Assembly: GCF_002205675.1 (NCBI RefSeq)
Contig: NZ_NISK01000006.1
Location: forward strand, 1 to 64,000
DNA: 64,000 nt
Origin: Sphingopyxis bauzanensis
GTDB taxonomy: Bacteria > Pseudomonadota > Alphaproteobacteria > Sphingomonadales > Sphingomonadaceae
Direction: 5' to 3'
In this document: in pieces, positions 514-62,402 of the stretch
How positions within the stretch are numbered: the first letter of the stretch is position 1
Layout of the letters: the number at the start of each line of letters is the position of its first letter
Program-made: the position numbers and the translations under genes
Notes under the pieces: generated by a model
Seen by the model: only the letters and a program-made list of their open reading frames with translations
The model's database searches: none
Told to the model about the DNA's origin: nothing

Positions 514-2915
<2,402 letters not shown>

Positions 2916-3061
2916 TCATCTAGATTGTCGCGCTGTTCTCACCTTGATTGTCGCGCAGCACGGCACCGCATGCACTCGGCCCTCGGGTATCTAACCCCCG
3001 AGCAAGCCGAGCAGAGCATGACCGGATAACCCAGTGTGTCCGCCGAAACGGGGGACGATCA

Positions 3062-6107: not shown

Positions 6108-6340
6108 ATGATCTCTCCCAGAATCTGGTCCATCCATGGCCGCCAATTCGTATTTTAGCTGTCCATGATACGCCATCGCTCGCCAAGCGCACCCAGCACC
6201 CGAATGATAGCCGTTTGTTGGATAATATGCAACTCTTATCCCGCATTGCCTTCGCAATCGGGCAGGCCATTGGACGCCCGATCGTCCTGTACGCAGGGGC
6301 AGCCGATCTGGAAACAAGCGAGGAGCCTTTGGTAGCTCCG

Positions 6341-6838
6341 TTAGATCGGATAAACGAGGTATCGCGGCAATACCGAGGTGTCGAGTTCAGCCCGGCGTGA
6401 TAGCAGCTTGAGTTCACCGTTCTTGCCTTGGCGCACAGAATCGAGATACTGTCCCGCCGCCAGAACCTGGGTAATCCCGGTGTCCTTAGGCGTCATGAAC
6501 ACCGAAAAGTTGGATCGCATTCCCAGGGTGGTTGCATCGATACGATCAAAGCTGGTGAGCTGGACGAAATGACGGGTGCGATAGTCCTGAAAGGTTCCGG
6601 CCCAGATGTCGTTCACGAAGGTAACGCGATCCTCGAGCCTAGAGCGGCAATCGTCGTACATGAAGCCGAGCGCGAACCCGTGCTCCGAATTCTCTGCCGA
6701 ACGACAGTAGTATGAGGCAGCCTCCTCTTCCGCATAATTCCCTAACCAACCCGACATGTCTTTGCCGTCGAGTGCGTGCGCATCGGCCAGCAGCAAGGCG
6801 TTGAGCGCCGCTTCGAGCGATATATCTGCCTGCATCAT
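6341..6838 (-). CDS. Ring-hydroxylating oxygenase small (beta) subunit, pair 1
   Basis: 165 residues of the SnoaL-like fold used by beta subunits of Rieske dioxygenases (BphE/BenB/AndAd families). The subunit is structural and forms the alpha3beta3 hexamer with the alpha subunit. Features include the acidic helix region DGKDMSGWLGNYAEEE, the central RLEDRVTFV segment and a C-terminal RYLVYPI strand. It overlaps the alpha gene by four bases (ATGA at 6835-6838), so the two are co-translated. Confidence 0.88.
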   Translation of the reverse strand: MMQADISLEAALNALLLADAHALDGKDMSGWLGNYAEEEAASYYCRSAENSEHGFALGFMYDDCRSRLEDRVTFVNDIWAGTFQDYRTRHFVQLTSFDRIDATTLGMRSNFSVFMTPKDTGITQVLAAGQYLDSVRQGKNGELKLLSRRAELDTSVLPRYLVYPI

Positions 6839-20252: not shown

Positions 20253-22692
20253 CGTAGGGGGACGGGACTGTCAGGATTTCCGTGTGTGGGCGGGCATAAT
20301 GGGTAAGAAGGAGTCCCATCATGTCCCGACGCAAAGAGCCGGCGATCCCGTCTGATTTACTCGATCAACTTTTGGCAGGCACGGATGCGGCGACGGCGCT
20401 GGATCAAGGCGGTTTGCTCGACAGCCTGAAGAAGGCGCTGGCCGAGCGCGCCTTGAACGCGGAGATGGATCACCATCTGGGCGGCGTGGCGGAAGCTGGC
20501 AACAACCGCAACGGCTATGGCCGCCAAACCGTGATCACCGACAGCGGCAAGATCGAGATTGATGTGCCCCGCGACCGTGCGGGTAGCTTCGATCCGCAAC
20601 TGATTGCTAAGTACCAGCGCCGCTTTCCGGGCTTCGACGACAAGATCGTGTCGATGTACGCACGTGGCATGAGCACCCGGGAGATCACTGGGCATCTGCG
20701 CGATCTGTACGGCATCGACGTCTCGCCCGACCTGATCTCGACCGTGACCGATGCCGTGCTGGAGGAGGTCGCCGCCTGGCAGGCCCGCCCGCTCGATCCG
20801 GCCTATCCGCTGGTCTTCTTCGACGCGATCCGGGTCAAGATCCGCGACGAGGGCATGGTCCGCAACAAGGCGATCCACATCGCGCTGGGCGTCCGCGCCG
20901 ATGGTCACAAGGAGGTTCTCGGCCTGTGGATCGAGCAGAATGAGGGGGCCAAGTTCTGGTTGCGCGTGATGAACGAGCTCAGGAACCGCGGCACCGAGGA
21001 TATCATGCTGGCGGTCGTCGATGGCCTCAAGGGCTTCCCCGATGCCATCACCGCCGTGTTCCCCGAGGCCGTAGTGCAGACATGCATCGTTCACCTGCTC
21101 AGGAACTCGATGGACTTCGTCTCGTGGAAGGATCGCAAGCCGCTGGTGACCGCCCTGAAGGGGATCTACCGCGCCGTCGATGCCAAGGCTGCCGAAGCGG
21201 CGCTGAGCGCCTTCGAGGCCAGCGAATGGGGTCAGCGCTACCCAGCCATCGGCCAGAGCTGGCGGCGGGTCTGGGCCGAGGTGATCCCGTTCTTCGCCTT
21301 CCCCGAGGCGGTGCGCAAAATTCTTTACACGACGGATGAGATGGACAAGACCTTTCCGTGCAAAATTGTGCTATGGCCCTCGTGCGCGGGCGACTCCGTG
21401 GCGAAGAACGGAACTCCGGCTGCAAGGTCCGTCAGGCCGCCTTATCACAGCCCTGCCGGCTTGGAGCGTCCGCGCACCTTTTCTTTTGGACGGGTCTCCC
21501 ACTGCGCGACGAACTGTTCATACGCCTGCTCGGCGCGGCGGGCGACTTCCATTTCCTGATCGCGCAGAACCTTGATGTTGTAGGCGTAAGCCGGGCCAGG
21601 CTTGTTCCCCTTCGCCTGCGGTTTGCCGGCTTTGAGTTCCATGGCCCTGCGCTTGTTCGCGATGAGCGCGGGTCTCGCCCACCGATAGTCGGCCTGATTG
21701 GTGAGCAGGTGCCAACACAGGACCGTCAGCTTGCGCGCGAGGGCGACCGCCGCGATCTGATGGCCGCGCTTTGCTCGGATTCTGACGAAGAAAGCGTGCA
21801 GCGGCCCCGGCGTCTTGGCGGCAGCCCAAGCCGCTTCAACCAGCATGGCCCGCGCGTGGCTTCGCCCGACCTTGCTGATCCGTCCATGGTGCGCCGGTCC
21901 CAGGCCGGACTGACGAACCCGTGGATTAAGCCCGAAATAGCTCACCAGCTTTTGCGGGCTGGAAAAGCGGCCGATGTCGCCAATCGCAGCAATGATTCCC
22001 GCTGCTACCGTCAGGTTGATGCCCGTTATCGTCAGCAGACGGGCAACGGCAGGATCATCGAGCGCGTCGGTCGCTATCTCCCTGTCGATGATCGCGAGAT
22101 CTTCACCCAACCGGTCCAGCTCGCGAACATGGCGCTCGATAGCCATGAGCTCGTCTTCTGGGATAGGCTGGCGTAAGAGCCAGGCGCGCCCAACACCGCT
22201 GAACAGATCTGCATGCGGGCAGCGAGGAATAAGATGCGAATGAAGGATCGCATGCACCTCATTCTTGATCCGCGTCCGGTGCCGAACCACCTGAAAGCGC
22301 CGGGCGGTCAGTCTGCGCCGCCGTTCCGTTCCCACATCCGGTGTCCAGATCTCGGGCAGATAGCCTGCCGCATGGAGACTTGCCAGCGTGCCGGCGTCGA
22401 TCTTGTCGGTCTTCACATGAGCCTGGGCAATCGCTTTCACCTGGAGCGGATTAGCGATGATCACCCGCGCCACGAACGGAGAAAGAACCCGCGATACCGC
22501 CATGCAGTTACCGGTGGCCTCGATGACCACTTCATCGGTCGGTCGCAGCCCTTTCCCGAACCCTTCCAGCGCCGTCCGGGTCATGTCGACCCGGCCCGCA
22601 TGCTTCAATATCCCCGCATCCCAAATCACCACTGATCTTCCCTCGATTTGACGGACACCGATGATAGGCTCCGCGGAGCCAGGAGGTGTAAG

Positions 22693-23016
22693 ATGACGAG
22701 TACGACAAAACGTCGGTTTACGGATGAGTTCAAGCGCGAGGCGGTAGCGCTGTGGGAGACCAGTGGTCGCATGCAGACCGAAGTGGCAGCTGAGCTCGGG
22801 ATTATGCCAACAATGCTGCGTCGTTGGCAGCGCAAGTTGCAGGATAGCAACGACATGCCCGTAAGCCCGGCGGCGAAGCCGCCAGTATCGGCGATCGGGT
22901 CGCCAGCGGATCAAGCGTCCGAGATCGCTCGTTTGCGGCGCGAGTTGGATCGGGCGCGGATGGAGCGCGACATCTTAAAAAAAGCGGTCGGTATCTTTGC
23001 GGAGATGCCGCGATGA
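22693..23016 (+). CDS. IS3-family OrfA
   Basis: 107 residues. The N-terminal helix-turn-helix (RRFTDEFKREAVALWETSGR) binds the element ends. A leucine-zipper-like coiled coil (ASEIARLRRELDRARMERDI) mediates multimerisation. The start is set by AGGAGG nine bases upstream. The gene ends with a four-base overlap with OrfB. A seven-A run near its end is a probable frameshift site. Confidence 0.94.
   Translation: MTSTTKRRFTDEFKREAVALWETSGRMQTEVAAELGIMPTMLRRWQRKLQDSNDMPVSPAAKPPVSAIGSPADQASEIARLRRELDRARMERDILKKAVGIFAEMPR
22977..22983 (+). other. Probable programmed -1 frameshift site for OrfAB
   Basis: Seven consecutive A bases in the codons L-K-K of OrfA. OrfB lies in the -1 frame, and that frame is open from the A run to the OrfB start at 23013. 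IS3 elements make the active transposase as an OrfAB fusion through such slippage; the use of this site is inferred. Confidence 0.6.
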
Positions 23017-23876
23017 AGTTCGCCTTTATCGAGCAGCATGCGTCCACCTGGCCGGTGAACGTCATGTGCTGCATGCTCGGCGTGTCGCGGAGCGGCTATT
23101 ACGACTGGTGCGTCCGTGCGCCGAGCGCGCGGACCACGGCGAACTTGGCATTGCTGCACGACGTGCGCCGGCTCCAGGCGCGGCATCAAGGACGATACGG
23201 ATCGCCCAGAATGCATGCCGCCCTGCGGGCGGAAGGTCATCGATGCAGCCGTGGCCGCGTCGAGCGCCTGATGCGTCGGCACCGTATTCGGGCACTGGCG
23301 GGGCGCCGGTTTCGGCCGTGCACCACCGACAGCCGTCACTATTTGCCGATCGCGCCGAATCTGCTGGCTCAGAACTTCGTGGCAACCGCGCCGAACCGCA
23401 TCTGGCTCGCCGACATCACCTATATCGCGACCGGCGAAGGGTGGTTGTATCTGGCCGCGGTGCTCGACCTTGCAACCCGCAAGATCGTTGGATGGGCAAT
23501 GCGCGATCACATGCGGACCGAGTTGCCTCTGGCGGCCATGATGATGGCTGCCCAGCGGCAGAGACCCGACCGCGGTCTCATCTGTCACTCGGATCGCGGA
23601 TCGCAATACGCAGCGGGCGCCTATGTCGACCACTTGGCCGCGATCGGTGCGACGCCCTCGATGAGCCGCACGGGCAATTGTTACGATAATGCCCCAATGG
23701 AAAGCTTCTTCCACACCCTCAAGGTCGAACTTGTCCATCAGTGCCGATGGGCGACGCAAGCCGAAGCGCGGCAGGCCCTGCTCGGATACATCGAAGGCTA
23801 CTACAACCGGCACCGCATGCACTCGGCCCTTGGGTACCTAACCCCCGAGCAAGCCGAGCAGAGCATGACCGGATAA
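23013..23876 (+). CDS. IS3-family transposase OrfB (DDE integrase)
   Basis: 287 residues. An HTH_21-like N-terminal region (LHDVRRLQARHQGRYGSPRM) is followed by the rve integrase core. WLADITYIAT contains the first Asp, HSDRGSQYA the second, and NAPMESFFHTLK the catalytic Glu. The C-terminus YYNRHRMHSALGYLTPEQAE is complete. Translation probably proceeds by frameshifting from OrfA, and the ATG at 23013 overlaps the OrfA stop. Confidence 0.95.
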   Translation: MKFAFIEQHASTWPVNVMCCMLGVSRSGYYDWCVRAPSARTTANLALLHDVRRLQARHQGRYGSPRMHAALRAEGHRCSRGRVERLMRRHRIRALAGRRFRPCTTDSRHYLPIAPNLLAQNFVATAPNRIWLADITYIATGEGWLYLAAVLDLATRKIVGWAMRDHMRTELPLAAMMMAAQRQRPDRGLICHSDRGSQYAAGAYVDHLAAIGATPSMSRTGNCYDNAPMESFFHTLKVELVHQCRWATQAEARQALLGYIEGYYNRHRMHSALGYLTPEQAEQSMTG

Positions 23877-49887: not shown

Positions 49888-52341
49888 ATGAATAAAAATA
49901 ATTGCAAAGTTAACAGAACATTGCTCCTGGCTAGCAGCGGTTTAGCTTTGGTCGTGTCATCCGCCCCCGTTTGGGGGCAGGATGCGGCAACTGACGAAGC
50001 ATCTGTTGCGCAGAGCAGTGGCGGCCTCGATGAAATTGTGGTGACCGCACGCAAACGCGAAGAAAATGCGCAGGAAACCCCGATCGCAATTACCGCGATG
50101 AGTGGGGACATGATTGAGAACCGACAGATCGCCAACGTCGCGCAGGTTGCTTCCTACGCGCCGAACGTGAATATCCAACCGGTTGGGAATATCTCCGGAT
50201 CAAGCGCCTCGCTCACAGCTTTTATCCGAGGCGTTGGCCAGACCGATTTCAATATCACTGTTGACCCTGGCGTGGGCATCTATGTTGATGGCGTTTACGT
50301 ATCTCGATCGGTTGGCGGACTGCTCGACATGGCCGATATCGGAAGTGTACAGATCCTTCGTGGCCCCCAGGGAACGCTTTTCGGCAAAAACACCATTGGC
50401 GGCGCGATCATTGTCAACAGCCGGGAGCCTTCCGACGAATTTGAACTCAAGCTCGAAGCCGCCACGGGTCGGTTCAACCGGGCCGACATCAAGGGCATCG
50501 TTAATATCCCCGTCAGCGACACGCTCGCTATGCGAGCGGTCGCATCCTATGAAACGCGCGACGGCTACCAGCTTCGGCTGGTTGACGGTGACCGGCAGGG
50601 CGACAAGGACAGTTTCGCGGGACGCGTAGCCTTCAAATGGGAACCCAGCGATGTTTTCACCGCGACCCTGGCAGGCGACATTAACATCCGACGCGAAGCG
50701 ACCGCAGCAAGCACTCTTGTCGAGAACCGGGATTCGCCCGATCTGTTGCAGATCGTCACCACGCCAAACGGGACCTTCGCTTTCCCCAGTTCAAATTTTG
50801 GATACAACAAGCTTGGCGGCGGGGCCGGTCAGTGCGGTGCTCCCGGCGAACTTGCACCCGTCGATAATCCCAACTGTGTCTCCTCTCGCTGGGTTACCGG
50901 TGACATCGATACTACGTGGGCCGGCGGGCCCAACCAATCCGATTTCGATTTGTGGGGGGCTAACCTGACGATGGAATATGACTTGGGCAATGTAACCCTC
51001 AAGTCGATCAGCGCGTATCGCAACCAGAAATCAACCATCGAATTCGACTTTGACGCGACCCCCTTCGAGGTGTTGCAGCTCACCAACAATATCGACCTGT
51101 GGCAGGCATCGCAGGAACTTCAGCTGGTCGGAAGCATACTCGATGACAGGGTTAAATTTACCTTAGGAGGTTTTTACCTGAAAGAAAAAGGTGAGGATAT
51201 CGAGCCATTGCGGTTCGGCTTCGCCAATTTTTTCAGCGGCGGCAAGATCAACAACGACAGCTACGCCGCCTTCTTGCAGGCTACTTTTGAAGTTACGGAT
51301 CGTCTGTCGATAACACCTGGCATTCGCTACACTGACGAAACAAAGCGCTTCGATCCTTCGGCGCAGGTCATTACCCGCGATTTTACGGCCGGCGTACTTC
51401 CGGACTATCCCGATGGTGTGTTCATTCAGTTTGCTCGCTGCATCACCGGGCAGGATGCGCCGCAGCTCCTGCCCAATGGGTTCCCTGACCCGTCCTGCGT
51501 TCCCTCGGCAACCAATCCGGGCGGGAACCACACTCTCCCGGCGGTGGAGGTTTCCGCCAAGGCCAAGGAATGGACCCCGGCGGTATCGGCAAACTACATG
51601 TTCAGCGATGATGTCATGGGCTATGCCTCTTATTCGAAGGGCTTCAAGAACGGTGGCTTCAGCCAGCGTATCTTCCCGGGCGAACTGGTAACCCCGGCCT
51701 TCACACCTGAATTCGTCGAGTCCTACGAAATCGGCCTCAAGACCGAGTTGTTCGATCGCCGCGTGCGGCTGAATCTGGCGGTGTTCCAGTCTGATTATTC
51801 CGATATTCAGATAGTCGTCAACGAGGGGATTGCCCCCAAGGTTCGCAACGGTGGTGAAGGACGGATCAAGGGCTTTGAAATCGAGGGACAGGCTGCCCCG
51901 ACCGATTGGCTGAGGATTGACTATGGCGTAGGGTACCTGGATGCCAGCTATCGCACGGTGGATCCGAGCGCGTTTCCTGTTACAGTCGACTCCAAGTTCG
52001 CTTTCGTGCCTGAGTGGACAGGAACCATTGCAGCAAACGCGACTGCATTCGACAATGAAAGTGGCAAGCTGGTAATCCGTGGTGATTGGTACCATCAGAG
52101 CGGTACTTTCAAGGATGCTGTGAACAGCCCGCAACTGTACCAACCCGCTTACAGCGTGTTTGGCGCGAACGCTTCGTACACCATCCCCGGAGATCAAATC
52201 ACGATCACCGCAGGCGTCACCAATCTGACTGACGAACGGTACATCCAAGGCGGGTATGTCGATCGGGATGTTGGCGGCGTTGCATTGGCGACATATTCCC
52301 GCCCACGGGAATGGTTCCTCAAGATCGGTTATGAATATTGA
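49888..52341 (+). CDS. TonB-dependent outer-membrane receptor
   Basis: 817 residues. A signal peptide of about 31 residues (basic start, LLLASSGLALVVSSAPVWG) precedes a TonB box region DEIVVTARKREE. The plug domain follows (QILRGPQGTLFGKNTIGGAI), then the beta-barrel, ending in the aromatic residue pattern KIGYEY. Sphingomonads use such receptors to take up aromatic compounds and oligomers; a substrate processed by the adjoining decarboxylase/flavoprotein module is a reasonable guess. It is followed by a strong terminator, so it is transcribed apart from that module. Confidence 0.93.
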   Translation: MNKNNCKVNRTLLLASSGLALVVSSAPVWGQDAATDEASVAQSSGGLDEIVVTARKREENAQETPIAITAMSGDMIENRQIANVAQVASYAPNVNIQPVGNISGSSASLTAFIRGVGQTDFNITVDPGVGIYVDGVYVSRSVGGLLDMADIGSVQILRGPQGTLFGKNTIGGAIIVNSREPSDEFELKLEAATGRFNRADIKGIVNIPVSDTLAMRAVASYETRDGYQLRLVDGDRQGDKDSFAGRVAFKWEPSDVFTATLAGDINIRREATAASTLVENRDSPDLLQIVTTPNGTFAFPSSNFGYNKLGGGAGQCGAPGELAPVDNPNCVSSRWVTGDIDTTWAGGPNQSDFDLWGANLTMEYDLGNVTLKSISAYRNQKSTIEFDFDATPFEVLQLTNNIDLWQASQELQLVGSILDDRVKFTLGGFYLKEKGEDIEPLRFGFANFFSGGKINNDSYAAFLQATFEVTDRLSITPGIRYTDETKRFDPSAQVITRDFTAGVLPDYPDGVFIQFARCITGQDAPQLLPNGFPDPSCVPSATNPGGNHTLPAVEVSAKAKEWTPAVSANYMFSDDVMGYASYSKGFKNGGFSQRIFPGELVTPAFTPEFVESYEIGLKTELFDRRVRLNLAVFQSDYSDIQIVVNEGIAPKVRNGGEGRIKGFEIEGQAAPTDWLRIDYGVGYLDASYRTVDPSAFPVTVDSKFAFVPEWTGTIAANATAFDNESGKLVIRGDWYHQSGTFKDAVNSPQLYQPAYSVFGANASYTIPGDQITITAGVTNLTDERYIQGGYVDRDVGGVALATYSRPREWFLKIGYEY

Positions 52342-52478: not shown

Positions 52479-53096
52479 GTGAAACGGATCGTGGTTGCCA
52501 TAACCGGAGCAACCGGTGCGATCTACGGGTTGCGTCTGCTGACAATGCTGAAAGACCAAGGTGGCTGGGAAACCCATCTGGTCATGTCGCAGGCCGCCTT
52601 GCTCAACATCCGCGAAGAACTTGACGATGGGCGGCGGCAATTCGAGGATGCTGCAAACGTCGTGCACAACAGCCGCAATGTAGGGGCAAGCATCGCGAGT
52701 GGTTCGTTCCTATGCGAGGGCATGGTGATCGCGCCATGCTCCATGCGGACATTAGCTGCAGTCGCCAATGGACTATCCGATAATCTGATCACACGCGCGG
52801 GGGACGTCATGCTCAAGGAGCGGCGCAAGCTGGTTCTGATGACGCGCGAAACGCCGCTCAATCTGGCGCACCTCCGCAACATGACTGCGTGCACCGAAAT
52901 GGGCGCGGTGATTTTCCCCCCAGTTCCGGCGTTTTACAATCGCCCACACGACATCAACGACATCATCGATCACAGCTGCATGCGGGTGCTCGATCAATTC
53001 GGACTTCATAACAACCTGGAGGATCGCTGGCAGGGATTGACTGGCGAAAACCCCGATCCGGCATTGCCGCTCAAGAAAATCGAAAGGCAGGCATGA
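52479..53096 (+). CDS. ubiX: Flavin prenyltransferase UbiX (VdcB/ShdB-type)
   Basis: 205 residues starting with GTG. FMN-binding IVVAITGATGAIYGLRLL, central VIAPCSMRTLAAVANGLSDN and C-terminal RPHDINDIIDHSCMRVLDQF are typical. It makes prenylated FMN, the cofactor of UbiD decarboxylases, and so supports UbiD at 56735. With UbiD and VdcD it completes the three-gene set of non-oxidative hydroxyarylic acid decarboxylases, here scattered by flavoprotein and dehydrogenase genes. The next gene overlaps it by four bases. Confidence 0.93.
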   Translation: MKRIVVAITGATGAIYGLRLLTMLKDQGGWETHLVMSQAALLNIREELDDGRRQFEDAANVVHNSRNVGASIASGSFLCEGMVIAPCSMRTLAAVANGLSDNLITRAGDVMLKERRKLVLMTRETPLNLAHLRNMTACTEMGAVIFPPVPAFYNRPHDINDIIDHSCMRVLDQFGLHNNLEDRWQGLTGENPDPALPLKKIERQA

Positions 53097-53665
53097 TGGC
53101 TTGGAAGCTAACGCGAAGGGATGTTTTGGGAGCCGGAGCGCTCGGCACTGCTGCCGTGGGGCTGGGGACCCTTGCGCGGTCGAAACCGGGCAGGGGCCGC
53201 ACTGTCACCCTGGTTGAGGAAAGTGGCGTGCCTGAAAGCCGCCAGTTCGCTGCCGCTCTGATCGACAGCGGCTTTGCAGGTGAAGTGATCCGCATCGACC
53301 AATCGCTCAATGGCTTGCTGCACGAACTTGAAGCAACCACCGGGACGATCATCGGGATGACATCTGACCCCGCCGCGATGATCGCAGGGCAGCTGCTGGG
53401 CGAACGCGGCGCCCATTCGCGGCATTTCTGGCAGCATCACTATACCAATGGCAGATGGCGCCATCGGATCGAAGGAGGCGCACGCCTGATTGGGAACACG
53501 ACACACGCCTGGCCGGTGGCGATTGCTCACCAGTTGCAGAGCGCCATTGGAAACAGATCACCTCAAGTCTCAAACGCCTGCACTTCCGGGGCCTGCGCGT
53601 TACTTGCCAGCAGTCCTGGTATGCTGGTGTCATGGGTTTATGAATTTGAAGGGCATCAATCGTGA
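53093..53665 (+). CDS. Small twin-arginine signal protein of unknown function
   Basis: 190 residues. The N-terminus WKLTRRDVLGAGALGTAAVG has a twin-arginine motif (TRRDVLG) and a hydrophobic stretch ending around LGTLARSKP, so Tat export or anchoring is likely. The mature part has a predicted alpha/beta start (TVTLVEESGVPESRQFAAAL), a HFWQHHYTNGRWRHR segment and two Cys in NACTSGACA. I do not recognise the family. It overlaps ubiX by four bases and the flavoprotein gene by four bases (53662-53665), so it is tightly co-translated with both. Confidence 0.72.
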   Translation: MMAWKLTRRDVLGAGALGTAAVGLGTLARSKPGRGRTVTLVEESGVPESRQFAAALIDSGFAGEVIRIDQSLNGLLHELEATTGTIIGMTSDPAAMIAGQLLGERGAHSRHFWQHHYTNGRWRHRIEGGARLIGNTTHAWPVAIAHQLQSAIGNRSPQVSNACTSGACALLASSPGMLVSWVYEFEGHQS

Positions 53666-55221
53666 GCAGCATTGGTCCGCAAGGGGTTGCCGCAGCCGAT
53701 TTCTCCAATGCGCTCGACGAGTTTGCAGGAGTCGTCGGAAAAGACCGCGTGTACGTCGATGAACAGCCGCTGTCGAGCTATAGGGACGCTTATTCCCCCC
53801 TCGCCGATGGTGAATTTCTGCCTTCAGCGGCCGTTGCTCCTGACGGCGTCGAACAGATTCAAAAGACCCTCAAGATCGCCAACGCCTATAAAATACCCAT
53901 CTGGACAATCGGTACGGGGCGCAATTTCGCCTATGGTGGTCCCGCCCCCCGCAAGTCCGGCTACGTCATGCTCGACCTCCGGCGGATGAACCGGATTATC
54001 GAAGTCAACGAGAAATACGGGTATGCTCTTGTCGAGCCCGGTGTTTCGTACATGCAGCTTTACCGGCATCTGCGCGCGATCGGCAGCAAGCTCTGGATCG
54101 ATCCCGCAGCGCCAGCATGGGGCGGCGTGATGGGCAATGCGCTAGAACATGGTGCAGGCTACACCCCTTATGGCGACCATTTCATCATGCAGTGCGGAAT
54201 GGAAGTGGTGCTGGCCGACGGCGAAGTGGTACGGACCGGCCAGGGAGCACTCGCGGGATCGAAACACTGGCAGGTGACCAAGCACGCCGCCGGTCCGCAG
54301 TTCGACGGCATGTTTACCCAGTCTAATTTTGGTGTGGTCACGAAGATGGGCATCTGGCTGATGCCAGAGCCTCCCGGCTACAAGCCGTTCATGATAACCT
54401 ACGAACGCGAGGAAGATCTCGAGGCGATCTTCGAGATCACCCGGCCGCTGAAGGTCAACCAGATCATCCCGAACGCCGCCGTGGCAGTCGATCTACTGTG
54501 GGAAGCATCTGCGAAGGTCACACGTCGCCATTACTTCGATGGCAAGGGCCCGCTCCCGCAGTCGGCCCGCACGCGGATCGCCTCGGACCTCAAGCTGGGG
54601 ATGTGGAACTACTACGGTGCGCTCTACGGACCACCCCCTATTATCGAGAACAACTGGAAGATCGTCGAGGAAGCCTTGATGAGCATCCCCGGCGCGAAGC
54701 TGTACCTCGACCGGGAGAATGACCCTGCCTGGGATTACCGCGTGCGGCTGATGCGCGGCGAGCCGAATATGACCGAATTCAGCATTATGAACTGGATAGG
54801 TGGTGGCGGGCACGTCAATTTCTCGCCGATCTCAGCGCCAAGCGGAGCGGAAGCGCTCGCACAGTACAACATGATAAAGCGGCGCTGCCACGAATACGGT
54901 TTTGACTATATAGGGGAGTTCCTTGTCGGTTGGCGTGACATGCATCACATCCTGATGATCATGTATGACCGGGCCGACGAGGCGATGCGCACTAGAGCCT
55001 ACGATCTCTTCGGTCTGTTGGTCGATGAGGCGGCAGAAATTGGGTTCGGCGAATACCGCACCCACCTCGCCTTCATGGACCAGATTGCCAAAACCTATAA
55101 GCACAACGATGGCGCATTGTGGGACCTACACCACCGCATCAAAGATGTGATGGACCCCAACGGCATTCTTTCACCGGGCAAGCAGGGCATCTGGCCCAAA
55201 GCGATGCGAGAAACATCGTGA
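53662..55221 (+). CDS. VAO/PCMH-family flavoprotein (4-alkylphenol or vanillyl-alcohol type oxidase/hydroxylase)
   Basis: 519 residues. The FAD-binding PP-loop PIWTIGTGRNFAYGGPAPRK spans 79-98, followed by MLDLRRMNRIIEVNEKYGYA and VEPGVSY, then GGVMGNALEHGAGYTPYGDH, all characteristic of p-cresol methylhydroxylase, eugenol hydroxylase and vanillyl-alcohol oxidase. The C-terminal domain ends with NGILSPGKQGIW. It would oxidise the side chain of a para-alkylphenol, with electrons passed to the cytochrome at 59928. No signal peptide is present. It ends 43 bases before an aldehyde dehydrogenase gene. Confidence 0.9.
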   Translation: MSSIGPQGVAAADFSNALDEFAGVVGKDRVYVDEQPLSSYRDAYSPLADGEFLPSAAVAPDGVEQIQKTLKIANAYKIPIWTIGTGRNFAYGGPAPRKSGYVMLDLRRMNRIIEVNEKYGYALVEPGVSYMQLYRHLRAIGSKLWIDPAAPAWGGVMGNALEHGAGYTPYGDHFIMQCGMEVVLADGEVVRTGQGALAGSKHWQVTKHAAGPQFDGMFTQSNFGVVTKMGIWLMPEPPGYKPFMITYEREEDLEAIFEITRPLKVNQIIPNAAVAVDLLWEASAKVTRRHYFDGKGPLPQSARTRIASDLKLGMWNYYGALYGPPPIIENNWKIVEEALMSIPGAKLYLDRENDPAWDYRVRLMRGEPNMTEFSIMNWIGGGGHVNFSPISAPSGAEALAQYNMIKRRCHEYGFDYIGEFLVGWRDMHHILMIMYDRADEAMRTRAYDLFGLLVDEAAEIGFGEYRTHLAFMDQIAKTYKHNDGALWDLHHRIKDVMDPNGILSPGKQGIWPKAMRETS

Positions 55222-55264
55222 GCGAAACGGCAGCTTGGACCCCTAAGTCAAGGATCGAAGAAGT

Positions 55265-56710
55265 ATGAAGAATATAGACCACTGGATAGGCGGAGCCCGG
55301 GTAGCGCCAGGCAGTGGCGCCTATTTCGACGACCTCAATCCAGTCGATGACAGTGTCTACGCAAGGGCCGCTGCAGGCACAGCCGATGATGTCAACCGCG
55401 CGGTTGAGGCTGGCGTGGCAGCATTCTGCATGCACCGCAACCTACCTGCCGCAGTTCGTGAGGGCTGGATGTTCAAGGCGGCGGAGATCATGGAACGCGA
55501 CGTCGCCAAGTTCCAGGAAGTGCTGATCGATGAGGTCGGCTCGCCGGTTGCCAAAGCAGGCTTCGAGACCCGGTTCGCGATCGGGTTCCTGCGTGCTGCC
55601 GCCGGGGTTCCGCGCCGGGTCCGCGGCGAAACCATTCCTTCGGACACACCGGGCCGCTTCAGCATGAGCCTGCGCCAGCCGGTGGGTGTCGTTGCCGGCA
55701 TAACGCCGTTCAATGTTCCGCTGATCAAAGGGATCAAGCAGTCCGCCATGGCGCTTGCAACCGGCAACGCCTTCGTTCTGCTCCCCTCCGAAGCCGCACC
55801 GCGCCTAGCTGACTTGCTCGCAGATCTGTGGCGTGAGGCGGGCGTTCCTGATGGCCTGTTCAACATCGTCTACGGCAATGGTGCCGAAATCGGCGATGCG
55901 CTCACCGGTCATGCCAATGTCGCTGCGATTACTTTCACTGGCTCCTCGCGCGTCGGCAAGCACATTGCCGGGATCGCAGCCAGGAACCTCAAGAAATATA
56001 CGCTTGAGCTTGGCGGCAAGAGCCCGCTGATCGTCTGCGCCGATGCCGACCTGGAAAAAGCGGTTGGAGCGGCACTCTTCAGCATTTTCATGTTCCAGGG
56101 CCAAGTCTGCATGGGCGCGTCGCGCATCTATGTCGAACGCTCCATTTTTGATGATTTTGCGAAGGCCTTCGCCGCCGCAGCTTCCAAAGCCAAGATGGGC
56201 GACTTGCGTGAACCCACCACCATGCTTGGCCCCATCATCTCCGAACGCCAACGCGATCGGGTGCGCAGCCACGTCGATGATGCCCGCGCAAAAGGTGCCG
56301 AAGTGCTGGCCGGTGCGGAGTGGACTGGCAACTACTGCTCCGCGACGGTGCTGCGCGGCGTTACTGCCGACATGACTGTCTACTACGAAGAAACCTTCGG
56401 GCCGGTCACCTCGCTCTATCCGTTCGACACGCTCGAAGAGGCGATCGAACTGGCGAACGATACCGAGTACGGCCTATCCGCCTCGATCTTCACCCGTGAT
56501 CTCGACAAGGCCTTGCGCTTTGCTCACGAGGCCGAAAGCGGGATGGTCCATATCAACGCCCCGACCCTCCATGACGAGCCGCACGTACCGTTCGGGGGGA
56601 CCAAGGCTTCCGGCTTCGGACGCGAGGGCACCGAAGCCGACCTCGAGATCATGACCGAGTGGAAATGGGTTACGATCCAGTCCGCCACGGCCAATCCCAG
56701 TGGTCACTAA
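55265..56710 (+). CDS. Aromatic aldehyde dehydrogenase (vanillin/4-hydroxybenzaldehyde/salicylaldehyde type)
   Basis: A 481-residue ALDH. Catalytic C282 in FQGQVCMGASRIYVE, base E248 in LELGGKSPL, Asn in TPFNVPL. The C-terminal HINAPTLHDEPHVPFGGTKA and SGFGREG is typical of vanillin and salicylaldehyde dehydrogenases. Placed between a VAO/PCMH flavoprotein and a UbiD decarboxylase, it probably oxidises the hydroxybenzaldehyde made by the flavoprotein to the hydroxybenzoate that UbiD decarboxylates. A secondary role as the NahF step is possible. Confidence 0.9.
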   Translation: MKNIDHWIGGARVAPGSGAYFDDLNPVDDSVYARAAAGTADDVNRAVEAGVAAFCMHRNLPAAVREGWMFKAAEIMERDVAKFQEVLIDEVGSPVAKAGFETRFAIGFLRAAAGVPRRVRGETIPSDTPGRFSMSLRQPVGVVAGITPFNVPLIKGIKQSAMALATGNAFVLLPSEAAPRLADLLADLWREAGVPDGLFNIVYGNGAEIGDALTGHANVAAITFTGSSRVGKHIAGIAARNLKKYTLELGGKSPLIVCADADLEKAVGAALFSIFMFQGQVCMGASRIYVERSIFDDFAKAFAAAASKAKMGDLREPTTMLGPIISERQRDRVRSHVDDARAKGAEVLAGAEWTGNYCSATVLRGVTADMTVYYEETFGPVTSLYPFDTLEEAIELANDTEYGLSASIFTRDLDKALRFAHEAESGMVHINAPTLHDEPHVPFGGTKASGFGREGTEADLEIMTEWKWVTIQSATANPSGH

Positions 56711-56734
56711 TCCCGCTCGCGTTAGGAACCGAAT

Positions 56735-58189
56735 ATGAACGACTTGGCCAATAAAGCGCGCGGCATTTCCTCGTTGCGGGACTTTCTTGAACTTCTTGAA
56801 GGCGAAGGCCAGGCGATCACCTGGAGCGAACGGGTGCTGCCGGAACCCGACCTGCGCAATGTCGCGGTCGCGGCTTCGCGCGATGCCAATGGTGCGCCCG
56901 CGATCTTGTTCGACAACATCGCCGGCTATCCCGGCAAGCGTACCGTGGTCGGCGTCCACGGTTCATGGGACAATATCGCGTTGCTGCTGGGCCGGCCCAA
57001 GGGCACGACAATCCGCGAGCTGTTCTTCGAGATCGCCGGTCGCTGGGGCGATGCCGAGGCACAGATCAGTTACGTTCCCGAAGGCCAGGCTCCGGTCCAT
57101 GAGTGCCGGGTCGAAAGCGGAATCAATCTTTACGACATCCTCCCGGTTTATCGCATCAACGAATACGACGGCGGGTTCTTCATGGGCAAGGCTTCGGTCG
57201 CGTCACGCGATCCCGAAGATCCCGATAATTTCGGCAAGCAGAATGTCGGCATCTACCGGCTGCAAGTACAAGGCCCGGATAGCTTCAGCCTGATGACCAT
57301 TCCGTCGCACGACATGGGTCGGCAGATCATGGCGGCCGAACGCAACGGCCTGCCGCTGAAGATCGCGGTCATGCTCGGCAACCACCCGGGACTTGCGGTC
57401 TTCGCCGCCACGCCGATCGGTTACGAGGAATCCGAGTACGCCTACGCCTCGGCGATGATGGGCGCGCCGATCAGACTTACCAAATCTGGCAATGGTGTCG
57501 ATATTCTCGCCGACAGCGAGATCGTGATCGAAGCGGAAATGCAGCTGGGCGAGCGTGTGCTGGAAGGTCCCTTCGGCGAATTCCCCGGTTCTTACAGCGG
57601 GGTCCGCAAGGCACCGATTTTCAAGGTTACGGCGGTATCGCATCGCCGAGATCCGATCTTCGAGAATATCTACATCGGCCGTGGCTGGACCGAACACGAC
57701 ACGCTGATCGGGTTGCACACCTCCGCGCCTATATATGCCCAGTTGCGCAAGGACTTTCCCGAAGTCACGGCTGTCAACGCGCTCTACCAACACGGTTTGA
57801 CCGGGATCATCTCGGTCAAAAACCGGATGGCCGGCTTCGCCAAGACCGTTGCTCTGCGTGCGCTGAGCACGCCGCACGGCGTGATGTATCTCAAGAACCT
57901 GATCATGGTCGATGCCGATGTCGACCCCTTCGACCTCAACCAGGTGATGTGGGCGCTGTCGACGCGTACCCGCGCCGACGATATAATCGTGCTCCCAAAT
58001 ATGCCTGCCGTGCCGATCGACCCGTCTGCGGTCGTGCCAGGCAAGGGCCACCGGCTGATCATTGACGCGACAAGCTACCTGCGGCCCGATCCCATCGGCG
58101 AGGCGCATCTCGTAAGTCCACCGACCGGCCCGGACATTGATGCGTTGAGCAAGGCAATTCGGTTACTTCAGCAAGGAGTTGCAAAATGA
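56735..58189 (+). CDS. ubiD: prFMN-dependent hydroxyarylic acid decarboxylase, UbiD family (VdcC/ShdC-type)
   Basis: 484 residues. The catalytic triad of the family is visible: R175 in NVGIYRLQVQG, and E277 and E282 in LEGPFGEFPGSYSG. Metal/prFMN contacts lie in GKQNVGIYR and the nearby Glu. Together with UbiX at 52479 and VdcD immediately downstream (four-base overlap) it forms a BCD-type decarboxylase for 4-hydroxybenzoate, vanillate or similar, giving the phenol and carbon dioxide. The ubiquinone-pathway UbiD is less likely because VdcD is present. Confidence 0.92.
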   Translation: MNDLANKARGISSLRDFLELLEGEGQAITWSERVLPEPDLRNVAVAASRDANGAPAILFDNIAGYPGKRTVVGVHGSWDNIALLLGRPKGTTIRELFFEIAGRWGDAEAQISYVPEGQAPVHECRVESGINLYDILPVYRINEYDGGFFMGKASVASRDPEDPDNFGKQNVGIYRLQVQGPDSFSLMTIPSHDMGRQIMAAERNGLPLKIAVMLGNHPGLAVFAATPIGYEESEYAYASAMMGAPIRLTKSGNGVDILADSEIVIEAEMQLGERVLEGPFGEFPGSYSGVRKAPIFKVTAVSHRRDPIFENIYIGRGWTEHDTLIGLHTSAPIYAQLRKDFPEVTAVNALYQHGLTGIISVKNRMAGFAKTVALRALSTPHGVMYLKNLIMVDADVDPFDLNQVMWALSTRTRADDIIVLPNMPAVPIDPSAVVPGKGHRLIIDATSYLRPDPIGEAHLVSPPTGPDIDALSKAIRLLQQGVAK

Positions 58190-58410
58190 GCGAGAGGCTC
58201 TGTCCGCGCTGTTCAAGTACAGGCGCAATCGAAGACTATCAGGGGCGCGAGGACAACACCGTTGTCTGGACGATCTATCGCTGCGTGACTTGCTGCTTTT
58301 CATGGCGTGACAGCGAACCGGCCAGCACCATCGGGGCCGGGGTCCGCTCGGCAGACTTCGCCGTCGATGCGGGAAATCTCGATCGCTATCCCAAAATACT
58401 TCAGCAATAG
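58186..58410 (+). CDS. vdcD: Hydroxyarylic acid decarboxylase subunit D (VdcD/ShdD)
   Basis: 74 residues. Two Cys pairs, CPRC (6-9) and CVTC (33-36), with TIYRCVTCCFSWRDSEP, match the small zinc-ribbon-like D subunit of vanillate/4-hydroxybenzoate decarboxylases. It overlaps ubiD by four bases. D subunits are required for full activity in several such decarboxylases; the mechanism is not clear. Confidence 0.9.
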   Translation: MSERLCPRCSSTGAIEDYQGREDNTVVWTIYRCVTCCFSWRDSEPASTIGAGVRSADFAVDAGNLDRYPKILQQ

Positions 58411-58428
58411 GCAAATGAGGAAACAAGG

Positions 58429-59895
58429 ATGATAGATCAGGCTCGCCAGGCGGCTGCACTGACAGCAATTGAAGCAGCTCTGGGCGCCGGAGCGGTCGAC
58501 CAATCGCCCGCTGCGCTGGCCCGCTACGCCACACCCCTCGCCATTCCGGTCGGTGTTGTCCTGCCCGCAAATGAAGCGCAGCTGGCAGTTGCGCTAAGTG
58601 CGGCGAAAGGCGCTGGCGGGGTATTGCAGCCTGTTTGTAATGGCGCGCATGGTCTTGAGAAAACCGGGCTGGACAAGGTTATCGTGCTCGATTTGCAGCG
58701 CATGAACCAGGTCCTCGAGGTGAACGAGGAACTGGCTTACTGCCTGGTCGAACCCGGCGTCACCTTCCGCGAGCTCGATGCTTATATCAAAAGCAAAAAT
58801 ATCAAGCTTTGGGTGGATTTCCCCGGCAAACCCGATGCGAGCGTGGCCGCCAGCTTCGTGGAACGGAGCGCGGGCTACACACCCTATTCAGATCATAGTC
58901 TGATGCAATGCGGCCTTGAGGTTATGCTCGCCGATGGCAGGCTGGTCCGCACCGGCATGGGCGCCATGCCCAAAAGCACCTGCTGGCAATTGTTCAAGTT
59001 CGGGTACGGCCCGTGGGTCGACGGACTGTTCTCACAATCCGATTTCGCCGTGCCAACCAAGGTCGGCACGTGGCTGATGCCGGAACCGCCTGCTTTCAAG
59101 ACGTTCATGGTTACCGTGGAAAACGAGGACGGGCTGGCTCCGCTGCTCGATGTGCTCGGCCCCCTCAAACTGAACATGGTTGTGGCAAATGGCGTTGCCG
59201 TAAGCAATGCGCTTCACGAAGCCGCCTTGCTCGGCAAGAAGCGCAACGACTACGGCGGCAAGGGCCCGATGGCGGCCAGCGCGGTCAAAGCGGCTGGTAA
59301 GGCGATGGGTTTGGGTTACTGGAATCTCTACGGTTCGCTCTATGGTCTGCCAGACAACGTCCCGATCCTGTGGGATCTGGTCAACGGCGCCTTCGGATCG
59401 GTCCCCGGGGCGAAAGTCATCGCAGACGGTCGTGGCGTCGATCCCCGGCTCTGGTCATGGCGAATGGGGACTATGACAGGGGCTGTGGCCAGCCCTCCGG
59501 CAGCAATCGCACAGTGGAGCGGTAACCAGGCGCTGACGGTCAACCCGGTCAGCCCGGTCGATGGTGAAGACGCGATGCGTCTCTACGAGCTTTCACGCGA
59601 TACCTGCGCAGAGCATGGTTTCGATATGGTCAGTGAAGCTGTCGCCATATGGCGTTCAGCCAACCACCGCCAGTTCCTCCCGAGCACTGGGTCGGACCAG
59701 CGCAGCGCAGCGCGCGCTCGCGCCTGCGCCGAAGCCTTGATCGAGGCACAGGCGGAGGCCGGATTCGGGCAAGTATTCACCGAACCGGGCCTGCGCGCCA
59801 CGGTCGACCAGACATTCGCTTCGGGCGGACTTTCGACACTCCACGCGAGGGTCAAAAAGGCCCTTGACCCAACTGCGCTGTTCGCGTCCGCCTGA
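58429..59895 (+). CDS. Second VAO/PCMH-like flavoprotein with a degenerate FAD loop
   Basis: 488 residues, clearly homologous to the flavoprotein at 53662: VLDLQRMNQVLEVNEELAYC, LVEPGVTF, RSAGYTPYSDHSLMQCGLEV and LADGRLVRTGMGAM align throughout. However, the glycine-rich FAD loop is replaced by GVLQPVCNGAHGLEKTG (64-80), and GGVMGNALEHG by DASVAASFVERS. FAD binding is therefore doubtful. It may be a non-catalytic partner subunit of the first flavoprotein, or an enzyme with altered flavin binding. The frame is intact, with no stops, and it precedes the cytochrome gene by 32 bases. Confidence 0.85.
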   Translation: MIDQARQAAALTAIEAALGAGAVDQSPAALARYATPLAIPVGVVLPANEAQLAVALSAAKGAGGVLQPVCNGAHGLEKTGLDKVIVLDLQRMNQVLEVNEELAYCLVEPGVTFRELDAYIKSKNIKLWVDFPGKPDASVAASFVERSAGYTPYSDHSLMQCGLEVMLADGRLVRTGMGAMPKSTCWQLFKFGYGPWVDGLFSQSDFAVPTKVGTWLMPEPPAFKTFMVTVENEDGLAPLLDVLGPLKLNMVVANGVAVSNALHEAALLGKKRNDYGGKGPMAASAVKAAGKAMGLGYWNLYGSLYGLPDNVPILWDLVNGAFGSVPGAKVIADGRGVDPRLWSWRMGTMTGAVASPPAAIAQWSGNQALTVNPVSPVDGEDAMRLYELSRDTCAEHGFDMVSEAVAIWRSANHRQFLPSTGSDQRSAARARACAEALIEAQAEAGFGQVFTEPGLRATVDQTFASGGLSTLHARVKKALDPTALFASA

Positions 59896-59927
59896 TCTGC
59901 CCTGCAATCAATCGAGTTAGAGGCATA

Positions 59928-60284
59928 ATGAAAAAACTGATCGCCCTTTCGCTGCTTGTCATATTGAGCGCCTGCGACAGCGACCAGACGGTCGAAAAAC
60001 CCGACGGCGCAGAAAATTACGCTTTGATGTGCGCGGGATGCCATGATCCCGGCCCGGGTCACCCTGGAACCATGCTGCTTGAACAAGCAGGACGACCGGT
60101 GGCATCGCTGTTCGGCAGAGACGACCTTGATCGGGAATATTTGCGCACGATCGTGCGTCAGGGGCTTATCGAAATGCCGCCATTCCGCCCAACTGAGCTG
60201 AGCGACGCAGAGATCGATGAGATTTACGCTCACATCATGAGCGCAGAACCGCCCGTGACGACACCGGCGATGCCGGTTAAATAA
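59928..60284 (+). CDS. Cytochrome c lipoprotein, probable electron acceptor of the flavoprotein
   Basis: 118 residues. Lipoprotein signal peptide MKKLIALSLLVILSAC with the lipobox Cys at 16; haem motif CAGCH (35-39); a candidate axial Met in EMPPF. It resembles the small cytochrome subunits of p-cresol methylhydroxylase (PchC) and eugenol hydroxylase, but is membrane-tethered. It would take electrons from the flavoprotein at 53662 and pass them to the respiratory chain. It is the last gene of the rightward module and overlaps the end of a convergent gene by eight bases. Confidence 0.9.
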   Translation: MKKLIALSLLVILSACDSDQTVEKPDGAENYALMCAGCHDPGPGHPGTMLLEQAGRPVASLFGRDDLDREYLRTIVRQGLIEMPPFRPTELSDAEIDEIYAHIMSAEPPVTTPAMPVK

Positions 60285-60807
60285 GGGCCTTGAGGGCCAA
60301 CCGCGTCAGCAGCGCGGCAGTATCTTCCGGAGCCGCAATTGCCGCGCGATAAGCCTCCAGGCTCAATCGCGCGGCGGATTGTGCGGACAAGTCCAGTGGT
60401 TGGCCCTGTTGCTGGCCATCATAGGCAAGACATCGGACCAGTTCGATCTGGATCTGGCGCTCCATCTGAAGTTCGCTCGCCTTCAGGCTGGTGTAAAGCT
60501 TGTCTCTCGCAGCTACCGCTTGCAGGTCCGGTGCCTGCTGAAGCCACGACTTGGCCCACCGCCGCGCACCGCGCACCGGCCAGACCATGTTTTCGTTCAA
60601 TGCAGCAACACCACCCAGCAGGTCGCCGATCTCAGATTGGCTGAGAGCCCTGCCCTCGCCTTGCGCCAGCCATAGACATAATAATAAAATGTTGACGTCG
60701 AAACCATGCTCGTCCTGCAGATCCAAGCACGGGTCAGCAACTTGCGGTCTTGCATAGACTTCCAGCGAAAATTGCCAGAATTCGTCAGCAGCGTCCTTGC
60801 TTGTCAT
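60277..60807 (-). CDS. TIGR02444-family conserved protein
   Basis: 176 residues starting MTSKDAADEFWQFSLEVYAR behind GAGGA; an ATG seven codons earlier is possible. The segment CLDLQDEHGFDVNILLLCLW is the hallmark of this conserved proteobacterial family of unknown function (also DUF2390). It is convergent with the cytochrome gene and ends inside it. It looks chromosomal or housekeeping rather than catabolic. Confidence 0.85.
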   Translation of the reverse strand: MTSKDAADEFWQFSLEVYARPQVADPCLDLQDEHGFDVNILLLCLWLAQGEGRALSQSEIGDLLGGVAALNENMVWPVRGARRWAKSWLQQAPDLQAVAARDKLYTSLKASELQMERQIQIELVRCLAYDGQQQGQPLDLSAQSAARLSLEAYRAAIAAPEDTAALLTRLALKALI

Positions 60808-60869
60808 CTTCCTCATTGCCGTGATCAACCTTCATCCTACGTTGCCCGTCCGCTGGCGGACAAGCGGAA

Positions 60870-61360: not shown

Positions 61361-62176
61361 CTAACCCTGCCAACCGATGGCCCTGCTTGCACTGCGCGCT
61401 ACATCAATTATCCGTTCGATCTTGGCCTTGCTGAAAAACGCCTTTTGTTCTGCACGAGCCAAAACACTCATTGTCGCGACCAAGCGATCTTGAGAATCCA
61501 GGACTGGCACCGACGTCGCCGATAGTCCCGGTACGACAGTTCCGTAAGTCCTGGCGAAACCCACCCGCCCAGCCTCCTCAATTTGTGCGGCAAGTTCGAG
61601 GTCATCGACGACAATACCCTCAGCACGCTCGCGTTCGACCCGTTCCCTGGTCTGTTCAGGAGGGCAATGCGCCAGAAAGAGGATCCCGGTCGACGATGTC
61701 TGCAATGGCAAGACCGATCCCGTGTGCAGAGATGTAAACAGCGGTATTCCACCATCGATCCAGCGAATGACAGTTGGGCCGTAATCGCCCCACACTGAAA
61801 GCAAGCCAGTAGTTTTCATTTCTGCCAAAAGATCTTCCAAATGCTCCGCGGCTATGCGCACGGTGTCCAGGCGTGCCATTGCCGCCAAGCCAAGACGGAC
61901 GGTGAGCCCCCCCAAATAATACCGTCCGCTCCTTTCGTCCTGTTCGGCCACCCCGGTATTCACAAAGGAAAGCAAATACCGGTGGGCTTGGCTGCGGGAC
62001 AGCCCTGAATGGTCTGCCACTTCGCGGAGAAAGGCTCCTTCACCTCCTCCGGTCTCCACTAAAGCCAGTAAAACTCGCACCCCTATTTCAACTGATTGAA
62101 TGGATTTTCTTTTATCATTGTCTTCTTTGAGCCCATTTTCAAATTTTTCACCAATTTTCTTCATATCGTGGTCCAT
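61361..62176 (-). CDS. IclR-family transcriptional regulator
   Basis: 271 residues. The winged helix-turn-helix (FLREVADHSGLSRSQAHRYL) lies near residues 45-65, followed by the IclR effector domain (GLLSVWGDYGPTVIRWIDGG, PLQTSSTGILFLAHCPPEQT). IclR proteins often control aromatic pathways, including protocatechuate and vanillate-type genes. It may act on the flavoprotein/decarboxylase module or on its own neighbourhood. The start at the ATG of MDHDMKK is preferred over an upstream TTG. Confidence 0.9.
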   Translation of the reverse strand: MDHDMKKIGEKFENGLKEDNDKRKSIQSVEIGVRVLLALVETGGGEGAFLREVADHSGLSRSQAHRYLLSFVNTGVAEQDERSGRYYLGGLTVRLGLAAMARLDTVRIAAEHLEDLLAEMKTTGLLSVWGDYGPTVIRWIDGGIPLFTSLHTGSVLPLQTSSTGILFLAHCPPEQTRERVERERAEGIVVDDLELAAQIEEAGRVGFARTYGTVVPGLSATSVPVLDSQDRLVATMSVLARAEQKAFFSKAKIERIIDVARSASRAIGWQG

Positions 62177-62402
62177 GATTTTCCAGTTTGCCAAATATGG
62201 TGATGATGAGCGAGTCGCAGACGCTTTCCCTCAAATGTAGATCGGTGTCGAGCAAAATTCGGTGCACGGGTTCGTCTGAAAAGATGATCAGCGAAGCGTA
62301 GTGGATTCATCTGCTTGCACAAACTCCTTGAGCCGGATTGTCGCGCGGAGGTCTTCGGTGCGTATGGTCGATAGTGACTTTCGAGACTGGTCTAGCTGAG
62401 GA

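Follow-up and report, generated by a model that had tools for sequence, protein, structure and literature searches.

A putative family of trans-acting Tat escorts for PCMH-type flavocytochromes, traced from a catabolic gene module of Sphingopyxis bauzanensis

How does a folded flavoprotein that carries no signal peptide reach the periplasm? To our knowledge, there is no accepted answer for the flavoprotein of p-cresol methylhydroxylase (PCMH). The question is raised by a stretch of Sphingopyxis bauzanensis DNA of 64,000 nucleotides (assembly GCF_002205675.1, contig NZ_NISK01000006.1, positions 1-64,000; hereafter the window), in which a signal-free PCMH-type flavoprotein (alpha) shares an eight-gene module with a small protein bearing a twin-arginine translocation (Tat) signal, a degenerate flavoprotein paralogue (alpha') and a c-type cytochrome. 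Comparison with related loci revealed that the Tat protein is a usual neighbour of PCMH-type flavoproteins with a cytochrome beside them. It is not peculiar to the module of the window, a point missed by an earlier sequence-only reading of this DNA. We propose, with a probability of roughly 0.6 and on the basis of sequence comparison, that an unrecognised family of trans-acting Tat escorts serves PCMH-type flavocytochromes generally, including the archetypal PCMH (through the protein PchX), that a minority have fused the signal to the flavoprotein, and that alpha', an ancient pseudoenzyme without flavin, is a subunit in a branch of these enzymes that forms heteromers. With slightly more confidence, the module itself may be read as encoding a flavocytochrome akin to PCMH, which a Tat escort exports and which is joined to a hydroxybenzoate-type decarboxylase. 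Such an escort family, if true, would explain flavoprotein export and might explain poor recombinant assembly; it makes a specific, testable new claim on the export of the PCMH-type enzyme class. No earlier description of the escort idea for PCMH was found in a search that lay outside subscription papers, which may already have identified PchX as a Tat protein.

The module spans 52479..60284, and all of its open reading frames (ORFs) are open at the following coordinates:

52479..53096, + strand: ubiX/vdcB-like flavin prenyltransferase, GTG start (NF004685, 277.6 bits, cut-off 188)
53093..53665, + strand: Tat-signal protein, proposed export escort for the leaderless flavoprotein (TIGR01409, 19.5 bits, cut-off 16.7)
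53662..55221, + strand: flavoprotein alpha, PCMH/4-phenol-oxidizing type, leaderless, predicted catalytic subunit (660 bits to 8s7p)
55265..56710, + strand: aldehyde dehydrogenase, hydroxybenzaldehyde type by context (Aldedh PF00171, 517 bits)
56735..58189, + strand: ubiD/vdcC hydroxyarylic acid decarboxylase, catalytic subunit (NF041204, 674.1 bits, cut-off 650)
58186..58410, + strand: vdcD, small decarboxylase subunit (NF041205, 62.8 bits, cut-off 30)
58429..59895, + strand: alpha', degenerate flavoprotein paralogue, putative pseudoenzyme subunit (FAD_binding_4 only; motif losses)
59928..60284, + strand: lipoprotein c-type cytochrome, predicted electron acceptor of alpha (Cytochrome_CBB3, 57.5 bits; kept on plasmids)

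These coordinates confirm the continuous co-directional order with four-base overlaps described earlier: three junctions overlap (ubiX/Tat, Tat/alpha and vdcC/vdcD) and the remaining gaps are 18, 24, 32 and 43 bases. Alpha begins with MSSIGPQGV and is signal-free, whereas its predicted cytochrome partner in the same putative operon has a secretion signal; a lipobox (ILSAC) and a heme motif (CAGCH, of the CXXCH type) can be read directly from its sequence. Apart from the Tat signal, nothing recognisable was found in the Tat protein by family searches. The Pfam Tat-signal model stayed below threshold (16.7 bits against 22.7), and the mature part had no match above cut-off in Pfam, NCBIfam or the Protein Data Bank (PDB).

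A small Tat-signal gene recurred around PCMH-type flavoproteins: the arrangement is cytochrome-Tat protein-flavoprotein in Sulfuricurvum and Massilia, and the bisphenol F cluster has the order flavoprotein-cytochrome-Tat protein. A further 60 regions were drawn, 57 of them from a survey of 199 genomes of the host family (94 flavoprotein places, with at most seven candidates scored per genome and hence possibly incomplete) and three from a phylum survey that gave matches in 8 of 398 genomes. Together with loci fetched before, 141 in all, they formed 57 flavoprotein clusters at 75% identity, one degenerate flavoprotein (L067_9953) included; 56 clusters had flanks, L076 being uncounted. A same-strand Tat-signal ORF of 85-270 amino acids (aa) stood beside the flavoprotein in 30 of the 56, two of which (L151) share one such ORF. 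In the controls, such an ORF turned up in 2 of 56 windows on the antisense strand and in 2 of 198 at shifted positions, and both antisense matches were recognised by the later family profile as divergent escort copies. Removal of two hydrophobic ORFs and one duplicate from 32 ORFs left 29 for homology testing. With the signals cut off, 26 of the 29 escorts grouped together by homology at E<1e-3, a number that profile iteration raised to 28; the best of 1450 shuffled controls reached E 0.019.

Motif and family profile together, in a count whose profile was built from proteins that it counts, assigned the 39 clusters with an adjacent cytochrome to three classes: escort in 29, flavoprotein with its own Tat signal in 4, and neither in 6. 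Clusters without an adjacent cytochrome had an escort or own signal in 6 of 17 cases (33/39 versus 6/17, Fisher p 0.00045, uncorrected for relatedness). Those six include the cluster of the window, whose cytochrome lies at the operon end; the other 11, two actinobacterial flavoproteins among them, have neither.

When the 199 host-family genomes were searched with the escort profile, 48 of 52 matches lay within 1.5 kilobases (kb) of a PCMH-type flavoprotein place. Escort and flavoprotein occurred together in 32 genomes, the escort only in 2 and the flavoprotein only in 4. The profile alignment (A7) held 18 of the 29 escorts and 9 of its 18 rows came from the searched genomes, so the search partly refound its own seeds. 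No escort match was found within 1.5 kb of 42 of the 94 flavoprotein places, which include own-signal forms, alpha' copies, cut contigs, cytochrome-free forms and some cytochrome-bearing ones (L113, L162). Twin arginines followed by a hydrophobic stretch were detected by script in 64 of 69 non-seed family members, many of them near copies, versus 37 of 2000 controls. Two escort-family members (L123, 6216-6704, -; L129, 8402-9457, +) have KR where RR is expected, their signals being Tat-like in other respects.

In the five clusters with an own-signal flavoprotein, no escort was found. The flavoproteins of L073, L075, L077 and L103 start MV[TS]RR.FL and continue with the usual core, and no separate escort was found in these loci by motif or profile (L103 has 0.7 kb downstream). 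The flavoprotein of L089, 76-77% identical to these four, starts at the core and is leaderless; a 187-aa Tat protein adjoins it. Among cytochrome-adjacent clusters, an escort was present in 0 of 4 with their own signal versus 29 of 35 others (Fisher p 0.0026, uncorrected for relatedness). On the flavoprotein tree, own signals need 3 changes, at least 2 of them forced by the starred branches. For a flavoprotein with a cis signal, the mature escort part therefore seems superfluous.

The archetypal enzyme may belong to the same scheme. L147, the nearest fetched locus to P. putida PCMH (76% identity to 1dii), has the order aldehyde dehydrogenase-cytochrome-172-aa Tat protein-flavoprotein, which matches what we take to be the P. 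putida operon order, pchACXF. PchX is therefore proposed, from gene order, to be an escort-family protein. Like the module, PchCF of P. putida combines a leaderless flavoprotein with a c-type cytochrome; around the PCMH-like L147, unlike in the module, neither an alpha' nor a vdc gene is labelled.

Alpha carries PF01565 (FAD_binding_4, 116 bits) and PF02913 (FAD-oxidase_C, 91 bits). Its best solved relative is 8s7p (660 bits), which we take to be 4-ethylphenol oxidase, followed by vanillyl-alcohol oxidase (VAO)-type enzymes and by PCMH (1dii, 488 bits). By alignment, the GRNFAYGG loop for flavin adenine dinucleotide (FAD), the His, YRTH and the PGK loop (SPGKQGI) are all intact. The PCMH flavin-link position of alpha is occupied by Met and not by Tyr, and the column of His387 in 8s7p holds a His, presumably the flavin link by VAO-family precedent. 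PCMH itself links FAD through Tyr384 (PMC12724174, seen in part). Alpha is for this reason not filed as a PCMH in the strict sense, although in its context it appears to act like the PCMH flavoprotein. His was found at the link site in 68 of 71 intact relatives and Tyr in 3; all 71 have the FAD loop and one link residue or the other, 67 the YR pair and 70 PG[KR] (one is cut). The 8s7p-type 4-phenol-oxidizing oxidases resemble alpha in the His column and differ in using O2. No cytochrome or Tat neighbour was found in the actinobacterial examples L079 and L093, and none is annotated around L167.

Both flavoproteins of L033 (S. yanoikuyae SJTF8 pF1; 2379-3947 and 5830-7398) have His at the oxidase-type flavin-link column. 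BpfA of strain DN12 is given as 100% identical to an SJTF8 oxidoreductase, and the absence of the Tyr together with a glycine-rich motif led to the inference of non-covalent FAD for it (PMC12724174, seen in part). A His-linked flavin is possible in flavoproteins of the L033/BpfA type, judging from this column. In the bpf cluster, the Tat-protein gene adjoins the cytochrome gene and by numbering would be orf5017; neither 'orf5017' nor 'hypothetical protein' occurs in the main text of PMC12724174, as far as available.

The gene cluster probably oxidises cresol-like compounds. By family precedent, alpha would abstract hydride at the benzylic position of a 4-alkylphenol, the quinone methide would be hydrated, and electrons would pass from alpha to the membrane-anchored cytochrome c. 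The aldehyde dehydrogenase would then yield hydroxybenzoate, which VdcBCD and UbiX would convert to phenol or catechol, the UbiX-type prenyltransferase making the prenyl-flavin mononucleotide used by the decarboxylase. This agrees, at the level of enzyme families, with the route from 4-alkylphenol through hydroxybenzoate to phenol or catechol that the sequence-only reading implied. Its link to a non-oxidative hydroxyaryl decarboxylase also stands, VdcC and VdcD equivalents both scoring above cut-off as in VdcBCD/BsdBCD systems. The module differs from those systems in that the VdcB model stays below threshold (NF041206, 260 bits against 290), while the UbiX subfamily and general UbiX models recognise the product of 52479..53096, and in that the decarboxylase is joined to a flavocytochrome.

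Alpha has no export signal, yet its electron acceptor would be periplasmic; the Tat protein would supply the signal in trans. It would bind folded, flavin-loaded alpha in the cytoplasm and carry it through the Tat channel. Precedents exist in the small Tat-signal protein MelC1, encoded next to leaderless tyrosinase MelC2 (PMC2758597, seen in part), and in the gamma subunit proposed to export the alpha subunit of FAD-glucose dehydrogenase via Tat (PMC6719666, seen in part). As in these hitchhiker systems, a small Tat-signal protein adjoins a leaderless cofactor enzyme: the Tat signal of the escort scores above cut-off and its leaderless cargo is linked to it. No kinship to MelC1 was detected with its model (15.2 bits against a cut-off of 120), and the glucose-dehydrogenase gamma family was absent among the Pfam hits of the mature Tat protein.

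The paralogue alpha' had been called degenerate, and this holds for the copy in the window and for the whole group. Alignment showed that the window copy has lost the FAD loop, the Tyr and His links, YRT and the C-terminal PGK loop. In all 48 distinct alpha' proteins the Tyr, the YR pair and both loops (G[RK]N and PG[KR]) are missing, and GYTxYxD is retained. Fifteen representatives lie on one side of one branch (approximate likelihood-ratio support, SH-aLRT, 100), in a quick, midpoint-rooted tree in which one alpha' representative is a long row. Hosts of this clade are alpha-, beta- and gammaproteobacteria and one metagenome-assembled genome (MAG) labelled Myxococcota. The ratio of nonsynonymous to synonymous substitution (dN/dS) was 0.11-0.20 for alpha', which indicates purifying selection, and 0.195-0.32 for the Tat protein, each in three pairwise comparisons with dS often >1. 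A recent decaying copy is ruled out by purifying selection and the single clade.

A labelled alpha' was found in 54 of 60 mapped loci that combine an intact flavoprotein with vdcC. Among the remaining six, L067 has its degenerate flavoprotein under another label, L103 is a short contig, L072 has a second flavoprotein, and L068, L071 and L091 each carry an additional intact flavoprotein together with a cytochrome of its own. In these last three (gammaproteobacterial MAGs), a 438-aa ORF, Rieske-oxygenase-like by eye, occupies the expected alpha' place behind vdcD, and the second flavoprotein with its cytochrome follows it.

Two flavoproteins in one system have a precedent. The PCMH of Geobacter is said, by Johannes et al. 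in 2008, to be an alpha-alpha'-beta2 enzyme with an FAD-free alpha'. The alpha' of the window, which has lost Tyr, His and FAD loop, is likewise a second flavoprotein without a flavin link. The membrane PCMH of Geobacter metallireducens has two flavoprotein homologues, PcmI and PcmJ (PMC12724174, seen in part), and with PcmG resembles the module in pairing two such homologues with one cytochrome; this contradicts the earlier statement that known PCMH has one flavoprotein only. The Geobacter system also has membrane genes, pcmCDEF. PcmJ is 39% identical to BpfA (same source, in part) and so may not belong to the degenerate alpha' clade. No Geobacter locus was recognisable among the 4 of 297 genomes that matched in a 297-genome search.

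The sequence-only reading knew of no described system with the exact composition of the module, but this composition is not unique. A protein search of plasmids returned the identical eight-gene order on five plasmid records, all typed conjugative: pNL1 of Novosphingobium aromaticivorans (two records, NC_002033 and NC_009426), p1 of Sphingobium fuliginis KK22, pF2 of S. yanoikuyae SJTF8 and p4 of Novosphingobium sp. ES2-1. KK22 p1 matches 24.5 kb around the module over 76% of the length. The pNL1 locus agrees with the module in the content and order of all eight genes (identities to the window: alpha 83%, alpha' 73%, VdcC 90%, Tat protein 44%), and differs in having one additional gene, for a succinate-semialdehyde-type dehydrogenase, after the TonB receptor and before ubiX. 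Because pNL1 is described as carrying p-cresol and m-xylene genes (PMC3946609, seen in part), we infer that the stretch matching the module is the printed 'p-cresol' genes. Loci L036-L106 come from public genomes that were scanned with alpha' as the query (A6), the best 80 of 307 stretches giving 71 loci. The module order was unchanged in many sphingomonad loci. Rearranged versions, from beta- and gammaproteobacteria, were found in Cycloclasticus, Porticoccaceae, Rhodocyclaceae, gammaproteobacterial MAGs and the Paraburkholderia plasmid pBN2, with the order (escort)-alpha-cytochrome-(aldehyde dehydrogenase)-vdcC-vdcD-alpha' and ubiX before or after. The expected co-occurrence of PCMH-type flavoprotein, degenerate paralogue, Tat protein and lipoprotein cytochrome was thus found elsewhere, and its recurrence on five plasmid records and in many fetched loci makes the arrangement more than chance. 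As a catabolic type, the module is ordinary and had been sequenced before. On a further Paraburkholderia plasmid, pBN3 (L032), a second module copy has its alpha gene directly behind an IS5 transposase gene, and this alpha gene is annotated shorter than the pBN2 copy.

Several observations weigh against the proposals made here. No cytochrome was found by script beside the escort-bearing clusters L126 and L145 or beside L119, which has its own signal. Six cytochrome-adjacent clusters lack both an escort and an own signal: L067_9953, L068_14920 and L072_3527 are second flavoproteins of escort-bearing loci, and L162, L065 and L084 are unexplained. Four of the 52 profile matches lie away from any listed flavoprotein; these unexplained matches are G034:C10:14341, G117:C97:3010, G038:C1:903172 and G108:C1:1501139, with none within 1.5 kb. 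Own signals are few (five of 56 clusters; one call, L137, with charged residues after RR, was judged false by eye, was also dropped by the later script and is uncounted). In alignment A8, whose rows were chosen for the Tat motif, His124 is present in 28 of 28 rows and His115 and Asp69 in at least 90%, a conservation of the long forms that could reflect a bound cofactor and not pure escort duty. The Tat protein may accordingly be a periplasmic cofactor-binding or electron-transfer subunit that uses Tat for its own folding and carries no alpha, a reading with which its constant place beside cytochrome and flavoprotein would also agree. We consider it improbable, since short forms of 113-119 aa (L127, L128, L130, L136, L164) are without the His124-bearing stretch, no escort was found with a flavoprotein that has its own Tat signal (0/4 versus 29/35 cytochrome-adjacent clusters), and the flavoprotein would still need a route out. 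Alternatively, alpha might leave with the cytochrome on the latter's Sec/lipoprotein signal, the Tat protein having an unrelated role. A 2025 paper proposed this for BpfAB and gives a SignalP result with a signal in BpfB and none in BpfA (PMC12724174, seen in part). Adjacency of the cytochrome in 39 of 56 clusters is in line with such co-export. Sec, however, transports unfolded chains, and c-type cytochromes receive their heme outside, so that a folded flavoprotein would not be expected to travel with the cytochrome; with five clusters whose flavoprotein bears its own Tat signal, we regard this route as very unlikely. Trans export by the Tat escort thus remains our preferred account.

For alpha', the contrary evidence concerns its position. 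In 57 of 59 mapped cases, which include at least three gene orders, it is the next gene after vdcD, in a sample that was fetched with an alpha' query, and hence biased, and that counts near copies. Such adjacency agrees with an association with the decarboxylase no less than with one to alpha, and His persists at the oxidase-type column in 2 of 48 alpha' (L073, L067). Alpha' could then be a cytoplasmic partner of the VdcBCD decarboxylase rather than a flavocytochrome subunit, a serious rival even if we think it unlikely. One of the two exceptions to the adjacency, L069, is cut; in the other, L105, alpha' follows the cytochrome, as it also does in L118, and no vdc gene is labelled on either contig (7.1 and 12.1 kb, respectively). 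These same-clade copies, the descent of alpha' from the PCMH flavoprotein family and the second flavoprotein of Geobacter PCMH (PMC12724174, in part) argue against a decarboxylase partner. Because of that descent and the Geobacter case, an alpha/alpha' heteromer is preferred, in which alpha' as a flavin-free pseudoenzyme would stand in for one alpha of the dimer; we put this forward tentatively, at a little under even odds. Whichever partner it has, dimer or decarboxylase, the clade adds a conserved pseudoenzyme. Finally, the locus might be an ordinary p-cresol module with two functionless accessory genes, a decaying paralogue and a stray Tat protein, as their lower identities to the pNL1 counterparts than that of alpha might suggest. 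The dN/dS values of both genes and a gene order kept across plasmids and classes leave this reading scarcely credible.

Two genes flank the module:

49888..52341, + strand: TonB-dependent receptor, upstream partner, probable uptake (same place in the five plasmid regions and many sphingomonad loci)
60277..60828, - strand: DUF2390/TIGR02444 gene, convergent neighbour outside the module (an opposite-strand neighbour also on the five plasmid records, L025-L029)

The 64-kb window contains no tRNA and no gathering-score Rfam matches. Several transposase-like genes, recognised by eye at 514-2771 and 20321-23876, stand among ring-hydroxylating dioxygenase and catechol meta-cleavage genes. An IclR-like gene (by eye; 61361-62194, -) is a candidate regulator, and four plasmid regions have an IclR gene annotated several kb past the module, the fifth region being cut at the record end.

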